59,057 nucleotides of DNA from Bacillus sp. ISL-41 (GTDB lineage Bacteria; Bacillota; Bacilli; Bacillales; Cytobacillaceae). Position 1 is the stretch's first letter. Each line of letters starts with the position of its first letter. This document shows, piece by piece, positions 10,785-34,414 of the stretch. The stretch is taken from contig NZ_JAGGQP010000022.1 of NCBI RefSeq assembly GCF_018613235.1, positions 1 through 59,057 on the forward strand, written 5' to 3'. Below the pieces are notes generated by a model. It had not been told where the DNA came from. It ran no database searches and worked only from the letters and a program-made list of their open reading frames with translations. The translations under genes were made by a program, and so were the position numbers.

Positions 10785-11650
10785 TTAACCATTAACGATG
10801 GTGCCGCCATTGACGTGAATGGTTTGTCCGCTAACATAAGTTGAGTCATCACTAGCCAGATAGACGTAGGCAGGTGCCAATTCATATGGCTGGCCGGCAT
10901 GTCCCATTGGAGCGTTTGTGCCGAACTTCGCGACTTCCTCTGCAGTGAAGGTCGAAGGAATGAGAGGAGTCCAGATTGGGCCTGGAGCTACGCTATTGAC
11001 ACGAATGCCCTGTGACGCAAGGGACATGGCTAGAGAACGTGTAAATGAAACAATCGCCCTTTGGTTGAAGAATAGTCGATCAACTTCTCATTACCCTTGT
11101 ATGCGGTAATAGAGGAGGTATTTATAATTGTGCTGCCTTTCTTCAAATGCGGCAGGACAGCCTTTGTCAGGTGGAAAATAGAAAATACATTCGTGCGGAA
11201 CGTCTTCTCCAACTGGTCTGCCGAGATATCGAGCAGACTTTTTTGCGGATGCTGTTCTGCTGCGTTATTGACCAGGATATCAATTTTACCGAACTCATCA
11301 AGCGTTTTCTTCGTCACTTCCTCACAGAATGGTTCACTGCCAATATCACCAGCAAGCAGCAGGCATTTCCGGCCTTCAGCTTCAACGAGTTCCTTTGTCG
11401 TCTGCGCATCTTTGCTTTCCTCAAGATAGACAATCGCAACATCCGCGCCTTCTTTTGCATAATAGATAGCTACAGATTTGCCGATACCGCTGTCTCCTCC
11501 GGTAATCAAGGCTACTTTACCACTTAATTTCCCAGATCCTTTATAATTTTCATCAACAGATTTAGGTTCAGGATTCATTTCCGGCTCAGTTCCAGGCTGA
11601 TGATCTTGGTGCTGAGGCGGAAAGCCCTGTTTTTTATTTTCATTAGGCAT
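10785..11650 (-). pseudogene. Frameshifted SDR family oxidoreductase (GSP39/YhdF-like)
   Basis: Two reading frames, 11650-11030 (206 codons) and 11027-10785 (80 codons), together make one classical short-chain dehydrogenase of about 288 aa, similar in length to B. subtilis YdaD/YhdF/YhxC. The first part holds the hydrophilic N-terminal extension, the TGGDSGIG nucleotide-binding motif, the N-N-A-A motif and the active-site Y-S-S-T-K. After T-K-G the frame runs into a stop. Restoring one G in the GGG (plus-strand CCC, 11057-11059) gives the expected A-I-V-S-F-T-R-S-L-A continuation into the second part. This is either a real inactivating deletion or a homopolymer sequencing error. The downstream piece is otherwise intact. 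Confidence 0.85.
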
Positions 11651-11905: not shown

Positions 11906-13558
11906 TTACTGAAGTTTATTTTTAAAGATTGAATAAGTCTTATAACCGCCTGTCAGGTTCTTGACCTTGAAGCCGTTTTGCTGAAGGATACGGGAAGCTA
12001 GGTAACCTCTCAATCCAACCTGGCAAGTGATCAGGATGGTTTCATCCTTTGGAAGCTCATCAAGACGATTACGCAAATCATCAAGCGGAATATTCTTTGA
12101 GCCTTCAATTTTGCCATCTGCATGCTCTTTCTCAGTACGCACGTCAATCATGAATGCGCCGTCCTGGAGCAATTTGTCAACTTCATAGTGCTGGACCGTT
12201 TCGATTGTACCATCCACAATGTTGGAAGCAACGTAACCAGCCATGTTCACTGGATCTTTTGCAGAAGAGAATGGTGGTGCGTAAGCAAGCTCAAGCTCTT
12301 GAAGGTCATAGACGCTCAAACCGCCTTTGATAGCCGTTGCGATAACATCAATACGCTTGTCAACACCATCTTTACCAACTGCCTGTGCACCAAAGATCTT
12401 GCCAGTCTCTCTGTCGAAAATAACTTTAAGAGAGATTTGCTCTGCGCCAGGATAGTAACCAGCGTGTGATAGCGGATGGATATGGACTACCTCATATGGA
12501 ATGCCCAGTCTGCGCAATAGCTTTTCGCTGTTGCCAGTCGTAGCAGCAGTCAACTCGAAAACTTTAACGATAGAAGTGCCCAGTGTACCTGGATATGCGA
12601 TTTTACGCCCATTGATATGATGTCCGACAATATGCGCCTGGCGGTTTGCTGGCCATGCGAGTGGAATCATTGTTGGCTGGCCATTGATATAGTCAGTAAC
12701 CTCGATCGCATCTCCCATTGCATAGATTGATTCGTCAGATGTCTGCAGGTATTCATTTACTTTAATACCGCCCCGTTCTCCAAGCTCAAGGTCAGAGTCA
12801 GCTGCAAGCTTGTTTTCCGGGCGAACACCGATTGACAGGATGATTAGTTCAGAATCAAGAACCTTGCCGCTTTCAAGAACTACTTTCGTGCCGTTCTCTT
12901 GAACATCGGTGATTCCGTCTCCAAGAATCAGCTCAACGCCATTTTTTCTCAACTCATCTTCAACGATTGCTGCCATTTCTGGATCAACCGGCCCCATAAC
13001 CTGTGGCAATTTCTCGACTAGAGTAACATTGACTCCAGCGTGTACCAGGTTTTCAGCCATTTCAAGACCGATAAAGCCACCGCCGATTACGACTGCGTTA
13101 TTTGGTTTATTGTCTTCAAGGTATGCTTTGATTTTATCCATATCCGGAATATTTCTAAGCGTAAATACATTTGCGCTCTTCAAGCCTTCAATCGGAGGAA
13201 CGATTGGTTTCGCTCCTGGTGATAAAACTAGAACATCATAGCTTTCAGTGTATTCTTCACCAGTTTGGACATGTTTTATAGAAACAGTTTTATCTTCACG
13301 GTTGATTGCAGTCACTTCAGAGAAATTGCGGATATCCAGGTTGTAACGTGCATTCATGCCTTCAACAGTTTGCAGAAGCAATTTTTTGCGGTCTTCAATA
13401 ACGCCGCTGATATGATAAGGCAGTCCGCAGTTTGCGAAAGAAATGAACTCTCCTCTTTCAAAAAGAACTATTTCAGCCTGTTCATCAAGTCTTCTTAGTT
13501 TAGTTGCTGTAGTTGCTCCACCTGCTACGCCGCCAACGATTACGATTTTTTTACCCAT
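11906..13558 (-). CDS. cdr: CoA-disulfide reductase / NAD(P)H polysulfide reductase with C-terminal rhodanese domain
   Basis: The 550-aa flavoprotein joins a FAD/NAD(P)H disulfide reductase (about 1-450) to a rhodanese domain (about 460-548). The FAD motif G-G-V-A-G-G-A begins at residue 9. The single redox Cys of the CoADR/Npsr family is Cys44, in F-A-N-C-G-L-P-Y-H. The rhodanese active-site Cys is Cys512, in I-T-C-Q-V-G-L-R-G. Family members reduce CoA disulfide, CoA persulfide or polysulfide; the fused rhodanese favours a persulfide or sulfane-sulfur role. AAAGGATG precedes the ATG. The gene is alone, with a terminator at its end and a CsoR/CstR-like dyad in its promoter, which supports a sulfur-stress function. 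Confidence 0.92.
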   Translation of the reverse strand: MGKKIVIVGGVAGGATTATKLRRLDEQAEIVLFERGEFISFANCGLPYHISGVIEDRKKLLLQTVEGMNARYNLDIRNFSEVTAINREDKTVSIKHVQTGEEYTESYDVLVLSPGAKPIVPPIEGLKSANVFTLRNIPDMDKIKAYLEDNKPNNAVVIGGGFIGLEMAENLVHAGVNVTLVEKLPQVMGPVDPEMAAIVEDELRKNGVELILGDGITDVQENGTKVVLESGKVLDSELIILSIGVRPENKLAADSDLELGERGGIKVNEYLQTSDESIYAMGDAIEVTDYINGQPTMIPLAWPANRQAHIVGHHINGRKIAYPGTLGTSIVKVFELTAATTGNSEKLLRRLGIPYEVVHIHPLSHAGYYPGAEQISLKVIFDRETGKIFGAQAVGKDGVDKRIDVIATAIKGGLSVYDLQELELAYAPPFSSAKDPVNMAGYVASNIVDGTIETVQHYEVDKLLQDGAFMIDVRTEKEHADGKIEGSKNIPLDDLRNRLDELPKDETILITCQVGLRGYLASRILQQNGFKVKNLTGGYKTYSIFKNKLQ

Positions 13559-13597
13559 TGTATTGTCATCCTTTCGGTTGAAAAATTTATGTGTTTT

Positions 13598-13613
13598 ATA
13601 CCCCTACTGGTAT
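13598..13613 (-). promoter_or_regulatory. CsoR/CstR-like operator in the cdr promoter
   Basis: ATACC-CCTACT-GGTAT is a dyad with a C-rich left half, similar to operators of the CsoR/CstR/RcnR family. On the minus strand it overlaps a TATAAA -10 (13601-13596), with TTCACG about 18 bp further upstream as a possible -35. CstR senses persulfide, which fits the rhodanese-reductase gene. The regulator gene is not in the window. Confidence 0.45.
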
Positions 13614-13790
13614 ATTAACGTGAAAATAGGGGAAATCCAATAGTACTTTGTGAAGGATTTGTGAATGTTTTACCAAATTAAGTATCCCTGACCGACTAAT
13701 GTCACATCCGAAACCAATACATTCATTTTAACGTGTAAATAGGGTAATACCATGGGCGGTTTGTGAACCATTCATGACTTTTCTATAAAT

Positions 13791-13824
13791 TAAAAGCGGA
13801 CAATGCAACCATCATCCGCTTTTT
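13791..13824 (-). terminator. Terminator after yajQ/yitK
   Basis: AAAAGCGGA (13792-13800) and TCCGCTTTT (13815-13823) form the stem. The minus-strand tail is TTTTAATTT. Confidence 0.75.
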
Positions 13825-13853
13825 ACTCAACATTATTTAGTTTTAGCACTTTA

Positions 13854-14345
13854 TTAACGATAATTCACGAATTGAACATCTACAGTAAGATCTGCTTCTT
13901 TGACAGCAGCGATGATCTTTTGAAGGTCATCACGGTTTTTGCCTGTGACGCGGACTTGGTCATCCTGTACCTGGCTCTTGATTTTCAAGCCGCTGTTTTT
14001 GATGATTGTATTGATTTTCTTTGCGTTCTCTTTATCGATTCCCTGTACGAGCTTGGCTCTTTGTCGGACTGTTCCTCCTGAAGCACGCTCGACTTTCCCA
14101 TAGTCTAGATTTTTTATCGGAATGCCTCGTTTAATCATCTTGCTGAATAGAACATCCTTCAACTGGTCAAGCTTGTATTCATCATCTGAGATAAGGACAA
14201 GTTCTTCTTTATCAAGTGAAATATCACTCTTGCTGCCCTTAAAATCGTAGCGATTCTGGATTTCTTTCATAGCGATGCTGATGGCATTGGTGACTTCAGA
14301 CATTTCTACCTTGGATACAATATCAAATGAGCTCTCTTTAGACAT
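13854..14345 (-). CDS. yitK: YajQ family nucleotide-binding protein
   Basis: The 163-aa soluble protein has the full YajQ/UPF0234 length. It starts S-F-D-I-V-S-K-V and continues with the conserved R-Y-D-F-K-G-S block near residue 32. In other bacteria YajQ proteins bind cyclic di-GMP or act on RNA or phage gene expression; the role in Bacillus is unknown. GGAGGTAG lies upstream of the ATG at 14345. It is divergent from cvfB across 325 bp and occupies the same position as B. subtilis yitK beside yitL. Confidence 0.9.
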
Positions 14346-14515
14346 GACTACCTCCGGAATAAGGAAAATTTGCTGCGCCGGGAGACAATGGCTGTCCAGG
14401 CGCTTTCGCTTTTGCTTACATTATAGTAAAATATAGCAGTTCAAACAACTTTACGTAATTTAGAGCGTTTTGCCTGATTATAAAAGTATAAACTTTTTTC
14501 ATTCAGATTAAAGTC

Positions 14516-14630
14516 TAGCTGCAGCGCCTAGCCCCTCGATCGTTTCGGTCCGCCCAATGAAGTCAAAGAACGACTTCACCGGTCGGTCCTCCAACGCTAT
14601 TCGGGGCTGACCAAGGCGCTTACGCTTTCT
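14516..14630. repeat. Structured intergenic repeat (family A)
   Basis: A compact copy running from CTGCAGCGCCTAGCCCCTCGA to GGCGCTTACGCTTT. The central hairpin keeps GAAGTC/GACTTC and has GGTCCG paired with CGGTCC, where the 45085 copy has GGTCCTG with CAGGCCC. It fills much of the 325-bp gap between yitK and cvfB; the rest is AT-rich DNA with no other clear signal. Confidence 0.8.
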
Positions 14631-14670
14631 TATTTGGGTAAGATGTTAATAACAAGGCAGGAGGGATTAT

Positions 14671-15534
14671 ATGTCCTTGAACGAATATACAGGTCAGACA
14701 ATGGAACTGACCGTAGCAAGAATTGTTGATTTCGGTTATTTTTTAACGGACGGAGAAGAGGATGTGCTGCTCCATTCCAATGATACAGACCGAACATTTG
14801 AAGAAGGAGATAAGGTAGAGGTATTTCTTTTTGTTGAATCAAGAGGGAGGCTCGCAGCAACAACGACCATACCGAAAGTGCAGGTAGGACACTATGAGTG
14901 GGTTCCTGTCGTTGATGTTAAAGAAGGTATCGGCATATTCCTGGATATTGGGATCAGCAAGGATGTTTTGCTTGGCGAGGAAGACTTGCCAGTAGTAAAA
15001 TCAGTTTGGCCGCAAGAAGGGGACTTGCTTTATATCACGCTTCGAGTAAACCGCAACAATATGATATATGCTCGAATGGCCACGGACCCTGTCATTCAGG
15101 AAATTTCGGTCAAAGCGACAAGAAGTGACTTCAATAAAAATGTCCATGGCTATGTATACCGCACGGCAAGGGTGGGCAGCTGGATGATCACTGCTGAAGG
15201 CTTTAAAGGCTTCATCCATGAATCACAGCGCCGCACTGAGCCGCGTATTGGCCAGAAAGTAGAGGGAAGGATCATCGACGTAAAACCGGATGGATCTGTC
15301 AATATCTCGCTTTTGCCGCGTAAGCAGGAAGCTTTGGATGAAGACGCTGAGAAAATCATGGAATACCTGGAGCTCCGTAATGGCGCAATGCCATACCATG
15401 ACAAGAGCATGGCCGAGGATATCCAGGAACGCTTCGGGATGAGCAAAGGCTCCTTCAAGAGGGCTATGGGAAGGCTTATGAAGGAAGGAAAGATCTATCA
15501 GGAAGACAATTGGACATATAAAAAAGAAAAATAG
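14671..15534 (+). CDS. cvfB: CvfB family S1 RNA-binding protein (YitL)
   Basis: The 287-aa cytoplasmic RNA-binding protein is the homologue of B. subtilis YitL and Staphylococcus CvfB. Three S1-like OB folds span roughly residues 5-65, 70-140 and 150-215, followed by a C-terminal winged-helix domain (about 220-285) with a D-I-Q-E-R-F-G-M-S-K-G-S-F-K helix. CvfB influences virulence and gene expression post-transcriptionally in S. aureus; that role in Bacillus is not established. AGGAGGG precedes the ATG. A short GC hairpin terminator follows the stop at once. Confidence 0.92.
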   Translation: MSLNEYTGQTMELTVARIVDFGYFLTDGEEDVLLHSNDTDRTFEEGDKVEVFLFVESRGRLAATTTIPKVQVGHYEWVPVVDVKEGIGIFLDIGISKDVLLGEEDLPVVKSVWPQEGDLLYITLRVNRNNMIYARMATDPVIQEISVKATRSDFNKNVHGYVYRTARVGSWMITAEGFKGFIHESQRRTEPRIGQKVEGRIIDVKPDGSVNISLLPRKQEALDEDAEKIMEYLELRNGAMPYHDKSMAEDIQERFGMSKGSFKRAMGRLMKEGKIYQEDNWTYKKEK

Positions 15535-21871: not shown

Positions 21872-21914
21872 TGTGAGTTAGTTCACTTAATCATGTTGGA
21901 AACACTTATATACT
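21872..21914 (+). promoter_or_regulatory. Fnr-type class II promoter of the radical SAM gene
   Basis: TGTGA-gttagt-TCACT (21872-21887) with TATACT as -10 (21909-21914). The box centre is 29.5 bp before the -10, the -41.5 arrangement used by B. subtilis Fnr. No good -35 is present, as expected for an activator-dependent promoter. The remaining AT-rich leader has no other clear signal. Confidence 0.85.
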
Positions 21915-21946
21915 TCTTTTATAGAGAAGTACTTAAGGAGGCGCCA

Positions 21947-23074
21947 ATGATGTTCGATAGAGATTTTAACAAAGACCCATTCATTGTGATTTGGGAACTT
22001 ACCAGAGCCTGCCAATTAAAATGCCTGCACTGTCGTGCGGAAGCACAATATAGAAGAGATCCGCGTGAATTGTCCTTTGAGGAAGGTAAAGCGCTGATTG
22101 ACCAAATATATGAGATGAATAATCCGATGCTTGTTTTCACGGGTGGAGACCCTTTGATGAGGGAAGATGTTTTTGATATCGCAGAGTATGCTGTGAAAAA
22201 AGGTGTGCGTGTTTCGATGACACCAAGTGCGACACCTAATGTGACGAAAGAAGCGATAGAAAAGGCGAAGTCAGTTGGATTGTCCCGCTGGGCTTTCAGC
22301 ATTGACGGGCCAACTGCTGAAGTCCATGACCACTTCAGGGGAACAGCAGGCTCTTTTGATTTGACGATGGAAAGAATCAAGTACTTGCATGAGTTGGAAA
22401 TCCCGATTCAAATCAATACTGTCATTTCCCGATATAATATTGAGTATTTGGATGAAATGGCTAAGATGGTCGAAGATTTGGATTGTGTCCTTTGGAGTGT
22501 GTTTTTCCTAGTTCCGACAGGACGCGGGCAGGAAAAGGACATGATCTCTCCGGTAGAGCATGAGAAAGTCTTCACCTGGCTGTATGATTTAAGCAAAAGG
22601 GTAAAGTTCGACATTAAAACGACTGCTGCGCAGCATTATCGCCGGGTTGTCATCCAGCAAAAAATGCGCGAAGCAAAGGATCATACAGAAGAAATTGATT
22701 ACTTGACCGCATTGACGAAGGAAGGGTTGACTGGCTCTATCGACGGCCTTGGCCGTGCGCCAAAAGGTGTCAATGATGGAAATGGTTTTGTATTCATTTC
22801 CCACGTAGGAGATGTATACCCAAGCGGACTGCTGCCTGTGAAAGCAGGGAACGTAAGGGAACAGCCCCTTGCTGAAATCTACAGAGATTCTCCAGTCTTT
22901 AAATCATTGAGGAATCCTGATGAGTACAAAGGAAAATGCGGAGTGTGCGAATTCAGGCATGTATGCGGGGGTTCACGCTCAAGAGCATACGCCATGACCG
23001 GTGATTACCTGGAGAGCGAGCCATTCTGCGTTTACATCCCTAAAGCGTTGAGAAAGCAAAAGCAGGAGAGCTGA
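21947..23074 (+). CDS. Radical SAM/SPASM protein (heme-synthase-like family)
   Basis: The 375-aa protein has the radical SAM cluster motif C22-x3-C26-x2-C29 (A-C-Q-L-K-C-L-H-C), a G-G-D-P motif near residue 67, and a C-terminal SPASM-like set C331-x2-C334-x5-C340-x20-C361 that should bind a second iron-sulfur cluster. It resembles the TIGR04053-type branch related to AhbD/NirJ heme-modifying enzymes. The exact reaction is not known to me. AAGGAGG supports the ATG at 21947; an upstream in-frame start at 21893 overlaps the Fnr promoter and is unlikely. The Fnr box predicts anaerobic induction, so a role in heme or cofactor maturation for respiration is a reasonable guess. It is convergent with fnr. 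Confidence 0.82.
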   Translation: MMFDRDFNKDPFIVIWELTRACQLKCLHCRAEAQYRRDPRELSFEEGKALIDQIYEMNNPMLVFTGGDPLMREDVFDIAEYAVKKGVRVSMTPSATPNVTKEAIEKAKSVGLSRWAFSIDGPTAEVHDHFRGTAGSFDLTMERIKYLHELEIPIQINTVISRYNIEYLDEMAKMVEDLDCVLWSVFFLVPTGRGQEKDMISPVEHEKVFTWLYDLSKRVKFDIKTTAAQHYRRVVIQQKMREAKDHTEEIDYLTALTKEGLTGSIDGLGRAPKGVNDGNGFVFISHVGDVYPSGLLPVKAGNVREQPLAEIYRDSPVFKSLRNPDEYKGKCGVCEFRHVCGGSRSRAYAMTGDYLESEPFCVYIPKALRKQKQES

Positions 23075-23147: not shown

Positions 23148-23855
23148 TTAATCAATCGAACAAAAAACTGCGGGGCAGTTTTCACAACCTATTTCCTGGC
23201 GTAAATAATCTACATCATGTACGAGGATTTTCCCTTTTTTAATTGATATGATTCCTTCTCTTTTAAGGTCGTTCAAGATCCGGTTTGTGCTTTCGCGTGA
23301 AGTTCCGCAGAAATTGGCCAGCTCCTGGTTAGTCAGCGGCAGGTCGATCAAAATGCCGGTATCTTTCTGGATACCATAGCTGTTTGTCATTCTGATCAAG
23401 GTAGAGAATAATGCACCTTTTTTTCCGTTAAGAACCAGGTCGCGGAATTTAGTCTGAGTTTTACGGAAATGATCGCTCATCCACTTCATAAATTCAAAGG
23501 CAAGTGATGGATTGTGGAAAATCTCCTTTTCGATCACATCTTTTCTGATGGCTGCAATTTTCGCGTCTTCGAGGATTAGCGCACTTAAGAGATACTTTGG
23601 TGCATCAGTAAAAAGTGTCAACTCTCCGCAAATATCATTTTCTCCGCAAATTCTTAAGGCAAGTTCGCGGCCATCCTGGGTGACTTTGCTGATTTGGACC
23701 TTGCCGCCCAGGATCAAATAAAGCTCCTCTGCCTCCATGCCTTCCTGGAACAGGTACGATCCTTTTTGCACCTGGATGGTCCGGTCGGCAAACTGGAGTA
23801 ATTCTTTAATTTCAATTGAATGAGTTGCTTTAGTTGTATTTGGCATGGTCATCAC
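23148..23855 (-). CDS. fnr: Fnr anaerobic regulator, paralog 1 (Bacillus type)
   Basis: The 235-aa Crp/Fnr protein has a cNMP-binding-like beta roll (about 25-120), a dimer helix and a C-terminal winged helix with recognition segment T-S-R-E-S-T-N-R (about 185-192). Like B. subtilis Fnr, the [4Fe-4S] ligands are at the C-terminus: Cys224-x2-Cys227-x4-Cys232, plus Asp139 in F-R-D-L, matching Cys227/230/235 and Asp141 of the B. subtilis protein. Complete ligands predict an oxygen-sensitive activator. It is transcribed divergently from narK; in B. subtilis fnr lies behind narK. The start at 23855 has two Met codons nearby (M1, M2, M4), and AAAGGGTG is upstream. Confidence 0.92.
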   Translation of the reverse strand: MMTMPNTTKATHSIEIKELLQFADRTIQVQKGSYLFQEGMEAEELYLILGGKVQISKVTQDGRELALRICGENDICGELTLFTDAPKYLLSALILEDAKIAAIRKDVIEKEIFHNPSLAFEFMKWMSDHFRKTQTKFRDLVLNGKKGALFSTLIRMTNSYGIQKDTGILIDLPLTNQELANFCGTSRESTNRILNDLKREGIISIKKGKILVHDVDYLRQEIGCENCPAVFCSID

Positions 23856-24194
23856 CCTTTTTTTGAATTTAGCTCTTTAATGAAGAGCTTTTTCCGTGGC
23901 TTCTCTTTATTGACCTAATAATAACATCGGGGTAGTGTTAACTAAATGATGATTAAGGAAATGTCAAAATCTCGTCACATTATAAGACCATTTTGTTCAC
24001 ATTTTCGAAACAATTGCAGTCAGTCTATCTATATTATATCGATAATAAAAGTCTAGTGTTTCAGTTGTTTAGAGACAACTGTGACAGTTTATTGAACAAA
24101 GAAGAGGATGTGAAGTTCGTCATATCTTAAGTTTTTGATTTTTCTTACTATTTAACAAAGGAACGTCTAGGTCTTGTTGAGTAGAGGAGGAAAC
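23856..24194. promoter_or_regulatory. fnr-narK divergent control region
   Basis: For narK, TGTGA-agttcg-TCATA (24109-24124) is centred 29.5 bp before TACTAT (24146-24151). A 7-bp stem CAGTTGT/ACAACTG (24062-24081) lies just upstream. For fnr, a minus-strand TTTAGT (23946-23941), 17 bp and TATTAT (23923-23918) form a plausible sigma-A promoter. Two TCACA half-sites at 23975 and 23997 have poor partners and wrong spacing for the same class II geometry. Confidence 0.7.
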
Positions 24195-25694
24195 ATGATC
24201 ACAAAAAAAATTCAACTGCCGCTTCAAACGCTGAGTCTTGTCGCCGGATTTATGGTATGGGTGATTTTATCTGCATTAATGCCGTTCATTAAAGAGGATA
24301 TTCAGCTGTCTGCGAACCAGGTTGCAATGGCCACTGCCATTCCCGTCGTCCTTGGTTCTGTCCTGAGAATTCCAATTGGGTTCTGGACAAACAGATTTGG
24401 GGCACGAAAACTGTTTTTTTCTAGCTTTTTATTCCTGCTGTTTCCGGTATATTTCATCAGTATCGCTGATTCCTATACAGATTTATTGATTGGAGGCTTG
24501 TTTGTCGGAATCGGCGGAGCAATTTTCTCTGTAGGCGTAACCTCACTGCCGAAATACTATCCGAGAGAACGCCATGGTTTCGTGAATGGGATATATGGAG
24601 TTGGAAACCTGGGAACTGCCCTTACAACTTTTACTGCACCCGTTATTGCAGCTCAGTTCGGATGGCAGCCAACAGTCAAGTTTTTCTTGATCTTGCTTAT
24701 CCTGTTTGCGTTCCTTAACTTTTTCCTCGGTGATAAAAAAGAACCAAAAGTTGTGACTCCTCTGGGTGAGCAAATCAAAAGCGTTTACAAAAATCAGAAG
24801 CTCTGGGCACTGTGCTTATTTTACTTCTTAACTTTTGGTTCATTTGTAGCCTTCACGATCTATTTGCCAAACTTCCTTGTGTCTCATTTTGGGCTTGATA
24901 AAGTAGATGCTGGGTTAAGGACTGCAGGTTTCATTGCGCTGGCAACATTTTTCAGGCCGATTGGGGGCTGGCTGGGTGACAAATTCAACTCATTTGTCAT
25001 ATTGATGGTTGTGTTTGCTGGAATGACCATTTCAGGCATCCTGCTTTCATTTACGCCATCGTTGACACTATATACGATTGGCTGTCTAGCAGTCGCAATC
25101 AGTGCCGGCATCGGAAATGGAACTGTCTTCAAGCTTGTACCGCTTTATTTTTCAAAGCAAGCAGGGATCGTCAACGGTATCGTTTCAGCGATGGGCGGAT
25201 TAGGAGGTTTTTTCCCGCCGCTTATGCTGGCATTCCTATACAACCTTACCGGACATTACGCAATAGGTTTCATGGCTTTATCACAAGTGGCACTGGCAAG
25301 TCTGATCATCGTCATCTGGATGTACTATCAGGATAAATTAAGCCTTGCTAAAAATATCATCGACCACACAGCAGAGGGAATCATGATTACAGATGTAAAG
25401 GGAACGATCGAAAAAGTAAATCCAGCATTCACGACTGTAACAGGCTATAGTGCAGATGAAGTCATTGGGAAGAATCCTCGTTTCCTGCAATCTGGTAAGC
25501 ATGGGGAAGACTTTTACAGGGAGATGTGGAAATCCATAAAAGACAATGGATTCTGGCAGGGGGAGATTTGGAACAAGAAGAAAAACGGTTCCATTTATAC
25601 TGAATGGCTAACAATCAGCCCTGTGAAAAATGAAGCAGGTGAAATTAAGAACTTTGTCGGCATGTTCAGTGAATTGACAGTGAAAAACGAATAA
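24195..25694 (+). CDS. narK: NarK-type nitrate/nitrite transporter fused to a C-terminal PAS domain
   Basis: The 499-aa protein joins a 12-helix MFS transporter (about 1-376) to a PAS/PAC domain (about 384-495). The NarK part has the substrate-binding Arg equivalents in L-R-I-P-I-G (near residue 57) and F-R-P-I-G-G-W (near 255), and glycine-rich nitrate-signature-like stretches Y-G-V-G-N-L-G and I-G-N-G-T. The PAS part has the typical T-A-E-G-I-M-I-T-D opening, G-Y-S-A-D-E-V-I-G-K-N-P-R-F-L-Q-S-G and W-Q-G-E-I-W-N segments. No kinase, GGDEF or other output domain follows. B. subtilis NarK is about 395 aa and lacks PAS. AGGAGGAAAC supports ATG at 24195; the open frame extends to 24174. An Fnr-type promoter precedes it. 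Confidence 0.9.
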   Translation: MITKKIQLPLQTLSLVAGFMVWVILSALMPFIKEDIQLSANQVAMATAIPVVLGSVLRIPIGFWTNRFGARKLFFSSFLFLLFPVYFISIADSYTDLLIGGLFVGIGGAIFSVGVTSLPKYYPRERHGFVNGIYGVGNLGTALTTFTAPVIAAQFGWQPTVKFFLILLILFAFLNFFLGDKKEPKVVTPLGEQIKSVYKNQKLWALCLFYFLTFGSFVAFTIYLPNFLVSHFGLDKVDAGLRTAGFIALATFFRPIGGWLGDKFNSFVILMVVFAGMTISGILLSFTPSLTLYTIGCLAVAISAGIGNGTVFKLVPLYFSKQAGIVNGIVSAMGGLGGFFPPLMLAFLYNLTGHYAIGFMALSQVALASLIIVIWMYYQDKLSLAKNIIDHTAEGIMITDVKGTIEKVNPAFTTVTGYSADEVIGKNPRFLQSGKHGEDFYREMWKSIKDNGFWQGEIWNKKKNGSIYTEWLTISPVKNEAGEIKNFVGMFSELTVKNE

Positions 25695-25701
25695 GCCTGT
25701 A

Positions 25702-25732
25702 AAAAGACTGCGTCCTTGATGCAGTCTTTTCC
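25702..25732 (+). terminator. Terminator after narK
   Basis: AAAAGACTGC (25702-25711) and GCAGTCTTTT (25721-25730) form the stem. Confidence 0.8.
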
Positions 25733-25907: not shown

Positions 25908-25950
25908 TGTGAGAATATTAACAGTTAACCACATTTGTTGCTGTTACAAT
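25908..25950 (+). promoter_or_regulatory. Fnr-type class II promoter of moaA
   Basis: TGTGA-gaatat-TAACA (25908-25923) is centred 29.5 bp before TACAAT (25945-25950). The right half-site differs from TCACA at one position. The rest of the 294-bp gap after narK is AT-rich, with a short inverted repeat around 25800 and no recognised riboswitch. Confidence 0.75.
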
Positions 25951-25988
25951 GTCAGTAATCATCACTTCTATAATTGGAGTTGACAAAT

Positions 25989-27005
25989 ATGGTAAAAAGC
26001 ATAATAAAAGACCAATTAAATAGACCGCTCCGCGATTTGCGTATATCTGTTATAGACCGATGTAATTTCCGCTGTCAGTATTGTATGCCTGCCGAGATAT
26101 TTGGCCCTGATTTCGCTTTCCTTCCTAAAAGCGAGTTGTTGTCATATGAAGAAATTGAACGTGTAGCCAAGTTATTCATAGAGCTTGGGGTGGAAAAGAT
26201 CAGGCTTACAGGTGGAGAGCCTTTGATGCGCAAGGATTTGCCGATTCTCGTCAGGATGCTGAATGAGATTGAAGGATTGAAGGATATCGCTTTGACCACC
26301 AACGGCGTAATGCTGCCGAAGTATGCCGAGGAGCTGCATGCTGCTGGCCTGAAGCGGGTCAATATCAGTCTGGACAGTTTAAAAGATGAATTGTTTGGCG
26401 AAATAAATGGCCGGAATGTTGGTGTCGGACCGGTATTAAAAGGAATTGAATCAGCGAAGAAAGCTGGCCTGGGCGTTAAGATCAATATGGTAATTAAAAA
26501 GGGACTCAATGATTCTGAGATTCTTCCAATGGCAGAATTCTGCAAAAAAGAAGGCCTTGAGCTTCGCTACATTGAATACATGGATGTGGGCAGCACGAAC
26601 GGCTGGAAAATGGATGATGTCATCACCAAGAAGCAGATCCATGACCTTCTAAGCCAGCATTATGAATTAGAGCCTGTTGATCCTGAGTATTTCGGTGAAG
26701 TGGCAAAAAAATACCGTTATAAAGGTACTGATATTCATGTCGGCTTTATTTCATCGGTATCAGAGTCATTCTGTTCAAGCTGCACAAGATCACGATTGTC
26801 AGCGAACGGCCAGATATTCACATGCCTGTTCAATGGCAATGGGCACGATATCCGCGACTTCATGCGCGCTGGTGCTACAGATGATGAACTCCGCTCCCGA
26901 ATTACGGACGTTTGGAATCATAGAACAGATCGCTATTCGGATGAACGAACGGCTGAAACAGTGGCGAACAGAAAGAAAATCGAAATGTCCTATATTGGCG
27001 GCTAA
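25989..27005 (+). CDS. moaA: GTP 3',8-cyclase MoaA
   Basis: The 338-aa radical SAM enzyme catalyses the first step of molybdenum cofactor synthesis, converting GTP to 3',8-cyclo-GTP. The N-terminal cluster is C25-x3-C29-x2-C32 (R-C-N-F-R-C-Q-Y-C). The C-terminal cluster set is seen in S-C-T-R-S-R-L-S and I-F-T-C. The essential C-terminal Gly-Gly is present (S-Y-I-G-G). Length is normal. ATG at 25989 is preferred because GGAG lies 10 nt upstream. The frame extends to TTG 25974. It is monocistronic, with an Fnr box before it and a terminator after it. The product supplies Moco to an anaerobic molybdoenzyme such as nitrate reductase. Confidence 0.95.
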
Positions 27006-32093: not shown

Positions 32094-32125
32094 AAAAAAC
32101 GCTTAGGGGCTCCTAAGCGTTTTTC
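32094..32125. terminator. Bidirectional terminator between the NarI-like and MEDS genes
   Basis: ACGCTTAGG (32099-32107), 4-nt loop, CCTAAGCGT (32112-32120), with A-run before and T-run after. Confidence 0.9.
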
Positions 32126-32699
32126 CGTATTTTTTACTACTTGCTAATTGGTATTTATCGGAGACGGTGAAATTGTCGTCTTTTAGAACATAAGGGTGTG
32201 TTTCCATCAAAATTTTTATGAGATGGTCTGGCATTTTCTCCCCTTCGTAAGCACAAATCAGTGGGAAAGAAAGTGAATTTACAGCTTCGTCTACTATTCT
32301 TTCAAAATCTTCAATTATATGCAGTGGATCTTTCATAGTGGCCCACTCAACATGTGCCCAGGATCGAAAAGAGATATCTTTTTCAACGTATGGCTGTACC
32401 ATCTTATTAAAATAATCCAGGATTGCCGGAGGGTGATAACTTCCACTGGAATAATAAAAATCGAAGCTGTTTACGCTATGAACAAATTTCATTTGGTCTT
32501 CCGTTAATCGCGAGCTGAGCTCTTTGTTAATTGAACGGAAGAGCGGTTCATTTTCAATGAAAATAACATAATCTCCCGCCTTAACACCTTCTTCTATGTA
32601 ACTAACAGCCTGTTCAATGTATTTCTCCATTGTACTATAGGAATAAAGGACATGGACGCTCCGTTGATCTTCAAACAACTTATTCATTTGTTTTTTCAA
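32103..32699 (-). CDS. Solo MEDS-domain sensory protein
   Basis: The 198-aa soluble protein consists almost entirely of a MEDS domain, a P-loop-like alpha/beta sensory fold first described in DcmR and methanogen regulators. H-V-L-Y-S-Y near residue 16, the G-D-Y-V-I-F-I-E-N stretch near 42 and the C-A-Y-E-G motif near 150 support this. No DNA-binding or kinase domain is attached. Start TTG at 32699 follows GGGGTGAT, and the first clear ATG is 5 codons inside. It is convergent with the NarI-like gene. Its partner and ligand are unknown; in Bacillus MEDS proteins are often near sigma or two-component genes. Confidence 0.75.
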   Translation of the reverse strand: MKKQMNKLFEDQRSVHVLYSYSTMEKYIEQAVSYIEEGVKAGDYVIFIENEPLFRSINKELSSRLTEDQMKFVHSVNSFDFYYSSGSYHPPAILDYFNKMVQPYVEKDISFRSWAHVEWATMKDPLHIIEDFERIVDEAVNSLSFPLICAYEGEKMPDHLIKILMETHPYVLKDDNFTVSDKYQLASSKKYGKTLRSP

Positions 32700-33721: not shown

Positions 33722-34414
33722 CTATTCAATATTGCAAATTTCAATCGGGCAATTCTCACAATCTATTTCTCTTTTTAGCTTATTGAGGGCATGGACGGTA
33801 ATGAATCCTTTATCAATGGAAATGATTTTGCTTTTCCTTAGGTCGCTCAATAATCTGTTTACGACTTCGCGTGAGGTCCCACAGAAGTTTGCGAGTTCCT
33901 GGTTTGTAAGTGATACATCAATCTTCAATCCATCTTCCGTCTTTATTCCGTAACTGTTCACCATCCGGATCAAGGTTGAGTACAATGCCCCTTTTTTTCC
34001 GTGAAGGACGAGATCCCTGAACCTTGTTTGCGATTTGCGGTGCTGCAGGGAAAGCCATTTAACGAGTTCCAGTGCAAGCCCGCTGTCCTTTTCAATTTCA
34101 GTCTCGAGCTTATCCTTCTGTATCACCGCTACCGTGCCGCTTTCTGAGGCGCGGGCATTCAATATATGCTGGGATGCCGGGCTGAAAAGTGATAGCTCTC
34201 CAACCAACTCGCCAGCTGAACACATTCTGATTGTTAACTCGCGTCCATCCGGAACCATTTTGCTGATCTGAAATTTCCCGCTCTGGATAATGTACAGCTC
34301 ATCTGCGGTATTTCCTTCTTCAAAAAGAAAGCGCCCTTTATCAATAGTCTTGATTTTGTGGACCTTTTCAAAAAGCTTATTCAAATTTGGTGACAACGTT
34401 GTTGCAGTCAACAT
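33722..34414 (-). CDS. Fnr anaerobic regulator, paralog 2
   Basis: The 230-aa Crp/Fnr protein is collinear with paralog 1 and keeps the same ligands: Asp134 in F-R-D-L and Cys219-x2-Cys222-x4-Cys227 at the C-terminus. The winged helix carries T-S-R-E-V-V-N-R in place of T-S-R-E-S-T-N-R, so DNA contacts may differ slightly. The start ATG at 34414 has only a weak upstream AAGGTGG. It is divergent from argC. A 15-bp palindrome TGTGAA-TTG-TTCACA (34509-34523) upstream has a half-site spacing one base shorter than the other boxes. Confidence 0.9.
   Translation of the reverse strand: MLTATTLSPNLNKLFEKVHKIKTIDKGRFLFEEGNTADELYIIQSGKFQISKMVPDGRELTIRMCSAGELVGELSLFSPASQHILNARASESGTVAVIQKDKLETEIEKDSGLALELVKWLSLQHRKSQTRFRDLVLHGKKGALYSTLIRMVNSYGIKTEDGLKIDVSLTNQELANFCGTSREVVNRLLSDLRKSKIISIDKGFITVHALNKLKREIDCENCPIEICNIE

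Follow-up and report, generated by a model that had tools for sequence, protein, structure and literature searches.

The gene considered here lies in a stretch of 59,057 nucleotides from Bacillus sp. ISL-41 (hereafter the window) and raises the question of what a PAS domain does at the end of a nitrate carrier when no output domain is attached to it. PMC10710835, citing Willson et al. 2019, mentions that regulatory domains (CBS, CNBD, UspA and PAS) occur fused to MFS carriers. The narK-PAS gene belongs with these, as it combines an MFS carrier and a regulatory domain in one open reading frame; the likeness lies in the C-terminal position of the fused domain and in PAS being among those named. 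A NarK–PAS protein, a flavin-type PAS or a detached kinase is not named in the part of that paper available to us. The MFS–PAS kind is already known in print. No description of a NarK–PAS protein was found in the literature searched, which was accessible in part, and in comparison with it the NarK–PAS family, its flavin-type PAS, the constant linker, the repeated losses and the neighbouring kinase core are apparently new.

Architecture of the carrier–PAS protein

The gene is a single open frame from ATG to TAA (Table 1) that encodes 499 amino acids plus the stop, contains no internal stop and is preceded by a good ribosome-binding site (AGGAGG) just 5' of the ATG. Pfam assigns MFS_1 to residues 15–340 (150 bits; cut-off 33.4) and PAS_9 to residues 394–495 (70.9 bits; cut-off 27), with the PAS model covering residues 387–492. 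No Pfam domain is found C-terminal to the PAS, and the protein stops a few residues past it, without an output helix. These assignments bear out the first-pass annotation, which had described a NarK carrier followed by a full PAS domain reaching the C-terminus and no output domain. The carrier had been said to end near residue 376, in agreement with the NarU alignment, which reaches residue 378. It had also been given twelve helices; the MFS fold is confirmed, and the helix number is taken from that fold alone. A frameshift or other artefact at the junction, already denied in the first-pass annotation, is ruled out by the uninterrupted frame and by the match of all 80 kept relatives through the PAS, and their conservation rules out a chance fusion. 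NarK–PAS is a real, conserved fusion without a covalent output domain. A terminator-like hairpin follows the stop codon, from which the gene is probably transcribed alone.

Table 1. Positions of narK-PAS, its parts and neighbouring features in the window.
Feature	Position	Strand	Basis
Crp/Fnr-family regulator, divergent, with C-terminal cysteines CENCPAVFC	23148..23855	-	Pfam
Fnr-like box TGTGAAGTTCGTCATA, one mismatch	24109..24124	+	TGTGA-N6-TCACA scan
narK-PAS coding sequence	24195..25694	+	ORF, Pfam, match through PAS in 80/80 kept named loci
NarK-type MFS carrier, residues 15–375	24237..25319	+	MFS_1, TIGR00886 (227.7 bits), PDB matches NarK/NarU, nitrate-site residues
Linker from TM12 to PAS, residues 376–396, constant length, probably helical	25320..25382	+	Alignment of 97 rows, hydrophobic moment
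PAS domain, residues 387–495, flavin-PAS type (T399, N409, W445, W454, W459, N460), without LOV cysteine	25353..25679	+	Pfam, alignments
Intrinsic-terminator-like hairpin	25702..25730	+	
moaA, molybdenum cofactor synthesis	25974..27005	+	NCBIfam

A search of the PDB revealed NarK and NarU, the latter presumably the Escherichia coli protein, as the sole relatives of the carrier with solved structures at E 0.001. The nitrate-binding residues of E. coli NarK, as given in the section of PMC4432589 at hand, are F49, R89, F147, N175, Y263, F267 and R305. Mapping by hand on the NarK/NarU alignment placed F19, R58, F111, N138, Y210, F214 and R254 at the equivalent positions, so that all seven are present, and they are invariant in 44 aligned sequences. 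The score against TIGR00886 falls below the cut-off of 311.7, which is narrow: 13 of 14 control genomes match the model and only 2 exceed it. By its substrate site the carrier is of the NarK type, outside formal TIGR00886 membership, and it is predicted to transport nitrate/nitrite, beyond mere sensing. Besides structural kinship and the nitrate site, it shares with NarK, NarU and NarT of the NNP family of the MFS a link to nitrate reductase genes and Fnr, and it differs from them in the C-terminal PAS and in the low TIGR00886 score.

Spread, loss and selection of the fusion

A scan of a one-per-species genome collection yielded 178 confirmed relatives, of which 80 loci were kept. The match extends to residue 494 or beyond in every kept locus, a count to be read with the bias of two of the six search peptides (residues 374–381 and 438–445, in the TM12-linker/PAS part) toward PAS-bearing copies. 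A single open frame is found in 78 of the 80. Of the two exceptions, L042 has a frame that stops at residue 451, and in L061 (positions 11140–11240; Virgibacillus subterraneus) the frame is broken at the NarK/PAS junction by an in-frame stop, with the remaining PAS frame open; either the gene was split recently in nature or the sequence contains an error. The comparison of homologues suggested in the first-pass annotation therefore comes out in favour of the fusion. The contrary arrangement it had envisaged, with close relatives all stopping before a separate PAS gene, is rejected, since a separate PAS is seen only in L061, through its in-frame stop.

MFS_1 and PAS_9 are both present in all 44 members of the alignment. 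Most of the closest named relatives (84–92% identity) come from contigs of Mesobacillus or Bacillus sp., after which we use Mesobacillus type as a working label for window-like copies. Loci L042, L044 and L099 are titled Chryseobacterium sp., Cytobacillus oceanisediminis DE0166 and Pseudomonas sp., respectively; their narK-PAS genes and gene order are of the Mesobacillus/Cytobacillus type, and these contig labels look wrong.

With a threshold of E 1e-60, a match is present in 16 of the 21 genomes of the genus, and two of the five non-matching genomes are less than 90% complete. At the family level 136 of 193 genomes match at the same threshold, with or without PAS, and the full-length form occurs in 64 of 398 sampled genomes of the class, across 11 family codes, one of these genomes (G370) being listed with a TGA. 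In that genome the PAS-bearing copy (locus L143, 58% identity) adjoins genes for a GAF protein, a PAS-type kinase and a regulator, in the order seen beside the PAS-less copies L135 and L136. No full-length match from outside the class Bacilli was found among those listed at E 1e-50 in a 398-genome sample of the phylum, some Bacilli included. Among plasmids, 567 records match; one of the best 20 is 62% identical over the whole length (Niallia taxi), and the other 19 are 28–36% identical.

A tree of 114 carrier domains (97 with PAS, 16 without and 1 split) was built by a quick method, with several rows on long branches. The PAS label changes seven times on it when scored as present or absent, the split copy counting as present. 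Forcing the PAS-bearing rows into a single clade lowers the log-likelihood by 160 and is rejected (p-AU 1.1e-5), and PAS-less copies nest inside the carrier tree, which indicates that the PAS is modulatory and sometimes lost. PAS and carrier have been inherited together, as shown by the correlation of their distances (Mantel r 0.83 against a maximum of 0.108 in 999 permutations, 95 rows), and one old fusion followed by several losses is the simplest account. Ten PAS-less carriers at 65–81% identity have no separate PAS frame of the narK-PAS type in the fetched stretches, the contig of L124 ending just past the gene. The PAS-less carriers L124 to L127 adjoin a divergent fnr gene, as the window gene does, and their four genomes hold additional PAS-bearing copies. 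These repeated natural losses, four of them in the same setting as the window copy, constitute ready-made controls.

Among 14 Mesobacillus-type copies the median dN/dS is 0.078 for the PAS and 0.034 for the carrier, rough values given the usable pairs (65 and 62 of 91, respectively) and a dS of about 1.1. By this measure the PAS is under purifying selection. The pairing of NarK and PAS is old and widespread among the relatives, and it might explain the quick shut-off of nitrate uptake when oxygen returns in some bacteria.

The linker and the PAS pocket

The region joining the two halves is free of insertions and deletions over residues 340–399 in all 97 rows, and the hydrophobic moment of residues 376–396 peaks at 100 degrees among nine angles tried, as expected of helical periodicity. 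A helix of constant length is more readily reconciled with mechanical coupling than with a loose tether. The putative flavin-type sensor on this linker would be a concrete, separable part of the carrier.

Compared with solved structures, the PAS family profile is closest to MmoS (127 bits), NifL (97 bits) and 9qq6 (96 bits), an entry listed as a histidine kinase whose PAS aligns identically to that of NifL. Other PAS and LOV domains score at most 74 bits, with the hybrid-kinase chains at about this value presumably being LOV domains, and Aer scores 54 bits. Against NCBIfam the PAS scores 89 bits with NifL and 142 bits, its best value, with the phosphodiesterase DibA. Several types of sensor can be set aside. 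The photoactive cysteine motif of LOV photoreceptors, which we take to be NCRFL, is found in none of the 97 rows. An Fe-S PAS like that of NreB requires cysteines, and the PAS has none in 87 of the 97 rows and a single one in the other 10. Heme is unlikely by analogy, as the nearest solved relatives, MmoS and NifL, speak against it.

The residues lining the presumed pocket are strongly conserved. T399, N409, F412, T416, G417, G425, S433, F440 and Y441 are kept in 97 of 97 rows, W445 in 96 of 97, and N460 in all 96 rows with a letter at that position. According to the available part of PMC10468136, the Trp of helix Fα is the main determinant of FAD binding, with a His and an Asn as secondary ones. 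W445 provides this conserved Trp, by our own assignment from the alignments, and two of the three determinants are in place, Trp and Asn, with a Pro at the His position. Fitting the pocket numbering of MmoS and Aer (PMC9668731, seen in part) to the alignment by hand places P428 at the His of Aer and MmoS (H53/H132; Glu in NifL) and F491 at their Arg (R115/R195), an Arg or His position. NarK–PAS is therefore not filed in the Aer/MmoS subtype. It retains the Thr, Trp and Asn of MmoS PAS-A, NifL PAS1 and Aer, the first two being its closest solved relatives, and differs from them in the Pro and Phe that replace their His/Glu and Arg/His, as well as in being joined to a transporter without a kinase.

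The carrier shares its Pro/Trp/Trp/Asn pattern with another PAS protein encoded in the window genome, one whose C-terminal end reads, by sequence, as a GGDEF-like domain. In PA0285, FAD binding by PAS2 was predicted from the same Trp and Asn, and the domain bound no FAD, as stated in the accessible portion of PMC10874727. Flavin binding by the carrier PAS is plausible, with chances close to even. In PAS-type kinases near the operons of relatives, each PAS match long enough to cover the pocket has all of Thr, His, Trp, Asn and Arg. The flavin signature of Aer/MmoS is complete in the tandem PAS domains of kinases encoded beside the relatives' nitrate operons (for example L068, positions 13450–15177) and in those of a window-genome PAS protein (L165) whose gene neighbours that of a molybdopterin enzyme containing an in-frame TGA.

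Proposed oxygen control, kinase neighbours and alternative readings

The divergent regulator gene next to narK-PAS has a cysteine pattern that we take to be that of the Bacillus type of Fnr. Some 10 kb away (33722–34414, minus strand), another gene of the Crp/Fnr family also encodes C-terminal cysteines and presumably belongs to the same type. The Fnr consensus is TGTGA-N6-TCACA. Five boxes with at most one mismatch occur in the window (at 21872, 24109, 25908, 29519 and 32882), each intergenic in the nitrate/molybdopterin region; the one at 25908–25923, with one mismatch, belongs to moaA. Five boxes compare with an expectation of 2.0, and at least as many are obtained in 6 of 100 shuffles; with up to two mismatches there are 27 boxes in the window against 29.7 expected, no excess over chance. 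Because the window-wide count is weak, the case for Fnr is carried by the conserved position of the box: one with at most one mismatch lies 5' of narK-PAS in 9 of 9 Mesobacillus-type loci (L037 to L045); across all loci the figure is 21 of 80, compared with 0.8% for simple shuffles, the related loci being non-independent. The order fnr, narK-PAS, moaA is likewise common to the window and to L037 to L045 (moaA is uncalled in L044). Membership of the gene in an Fnr regulon, as claimed in the first-pass annotation, is supported by the divergent Fnr-type gene and the conserved box, short of proof, and Fnr probably switches on narK-PAS transcription at low oxygen.

Two further genes of this part of the window deserve mention. 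A Radical SAM/SPASM protein (TIGR04053, 539.7 bits) is encoded at 21893–23074 on the plus strand, with the one-mismatch Fnr-like box of 21872–21887 in front of it; a cluster of radical SAM genes, one that takes in the Mesobacillus-type copies, is found near narK-PAS in 22 of the 80 loci. Inside the nitrate/molybdopterin region, a MEDS-domain protein (PF14417, 71 bits; 32103–32699, minus strand) is distantly similar to anti-sigma regulators of the RsbA kind.

A nitrate reductase is encoded within 7.5 kb of narK-PAS in 67 of the 80 loci, NarGH in 28 and a NasC-like enzyme in 39; nar names were given from sequence and gene order, and the NasC-like example scanned reaches 868 bits against a cut-off of 1100. 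In 20 of the 80 loci the gene adjoins a stand-alone kinase core, HK216, which consists of HisKA_3 and HATPase only and lacks a sensor domain. HK216 lies directly 3' of the best-matching narK-PAS copy in 19 loci, with a gap of 1–192 bp, and beside the other copy in L081. All 20 copies retain the His box, and the best NCBIfam matches of HK216, both below cut-off, are MctS (120 of 700 bits) and UhpB (105 of 408 bits). Where the contig permits, the genes that follow encode a LuxR regulator and an NreA-like GAF protein, in most cases together with a PAS-type kinase. All 19 loci in which HK216 directly follows narK-PAS have a NasC-like reductase, and none has NarGH.

In this subset HK216 may supply the missing output in trans. 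UhpC is an MFS protein that serves the kinase UhpB, and in this pair, as in CbrA, a transporter-like membrane part is coupled to a kinase. In CbrA, the SLC5 and PAS parts precede the kinase, so that a PAS also lies between carrier and kinase (PMC7096432, available in part). The present arrangement differs in that the kinase core is a separate gene, found in a quarter of the loci. In the window no cognate kinase is fused to narK-PAS or encoded beside it, which keeps the gene out of the transporter-coupled kinases. A search of the window genome yielded only 26–34% identical matches inside longer frames, with no close relative of HK216, and no NreA was found there either. A kinase partner of this kind encoded in the window genome is thus rejected, and HK216 cannot be the general answer.

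From this evidence we tentatively favour a cytosolic, redox-responsive PAS switch on NarK-type nitrate transport under Fnr-controlled synthesis, a reading to which we give somewhat less than even confidence and for which we infer transport, flavin binding, redox sensing and gating. Fnr would raise synthesis of the carrier when oxygen is low, and the PAS, rigidly joined to TM12 in the cytosol, would control its activity, so that oxygen would act twice, on synthesis and on activity. In one group of relatives the detached histidine kinase core next door may also read the state of the PAS. The first-pass annotation had proposed that the PAS gates transport or recruits a partner. This is still the simplest reading, now joined by a conserved fusion and by a kinase core beside the gene in a quarter of the loci, with gating as its conjectural part; the retention of the PAS in the 60 loci without HK216 points to a role within the carrier. 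The activity step is attractive because oxygen has been reported to shut NarK2-type transport via the redox state of the cell, by a mechanism left unexplained (PMC3445494, seen in part). If the proposal is correct, the missing oxygen switch of nitrate uptake would be gating by the carrier's own PAS. That report concerns NarK2 of Mycobacterium tuberculosis, and the word PAS is absent from the part of it available to us, so the PAS cannot be a universal mechanism. Counting against a flavin switch are P428 and F491 in the pocket, the top NCBIfam score of DibA, the failure of PA0285 PAS2 and the repeated loss of the domain.

Several other readings were weighed against the redox switch. The carrier–PAS protein could be a transceptor, the membrane sensor of a split histidine kinase that passes nitrate occupancy and/or redox state to HK216, which would then phosphorylate the adjacent LuxR-type regulator. 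The sensorless core next door with its invariant His box, the regulator that follows, the likeness to UhpB and MctS below cut-off, and the UhpC–UhpB and CbrA analogues all argue for this; we nevertheless consider it rather unlikely, as 60 loci lack HK216, the window genome has neither a close HK216 nor NreA, and most of the operons with HK216 also contain a gene for a complete PAS-type kinase able to serve the regulator. Moreover, the ratio of PAS to carrier divergence in loci with HK216 (1.69) is not below that of the nar (1.39) or other nas loci (1.34), the Mesobacillus type reaching 1.95. For a quarter of the loci, a kinase acting in trans has to be taken seriously as an alternative, perhaps as an added, second possible output there. 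That one protein carries nitrate, senses redox through a flavin-type PAS, gates itself and, in relatives with HK216, also drives the detached core as a split transporter-receptor kinase appears improbable.

A purely structural role is also unlikely. PAS domains often dimerise, and the protein ends a few residues past the PAS without an output helix, as suits a domain that senses nothing and instead holds two carriers together or brings the carrier to nitrate reductase or another partner so as to channel nitrate and nitrite; the frequent presence of reductase genes nearby agrees with this. However, the presumed flavin-anchor Trp and Asn are among the conserved positions, and the division of the reductases between NarGH and NasC-like makes a single docking surface less likely. 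Feedback control of uptake by a non-flavin ligand, such as a carboxylate or another nitrogen metabolite, seems quite improbable: the DibA score, the shared pattern of the GGDEF-like protein and the PA0285 result (PMC10874727, in the portion at hand) are in its favour, while the FAD sensors MmoS and NifL rank first among solved structures and the anchor residues are nearly invariant. The several losses of the PAS and the junction stop of L061 would suit a functionless passenger, which is very hard to reconcile with the low dN/dS of the domain, its near-invariant pocket, the complete absence of linker indels and the spread over 11 family codes.

In the window genome itself, ten frames match a molybdopterin domain; none of the seven scanned is NarG, and one is NasC-like (915 bits; cut-off 1100), located on another contig in a cluster that resembles those of the relatives. 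Outside these seven, three molybdopterin-oxidoreductase frames (L152, L153 and L159; 692–1014 residues) each contain one in-frame TGA, which may encode selenocysteine. An ArrA-like enzyme (L160; 1127 bits, cut-off 1600) and a TtrA-like one (L161; 486 bits, cut-off 1750) are also encoded, fitting a versatile anaerobic respirer.
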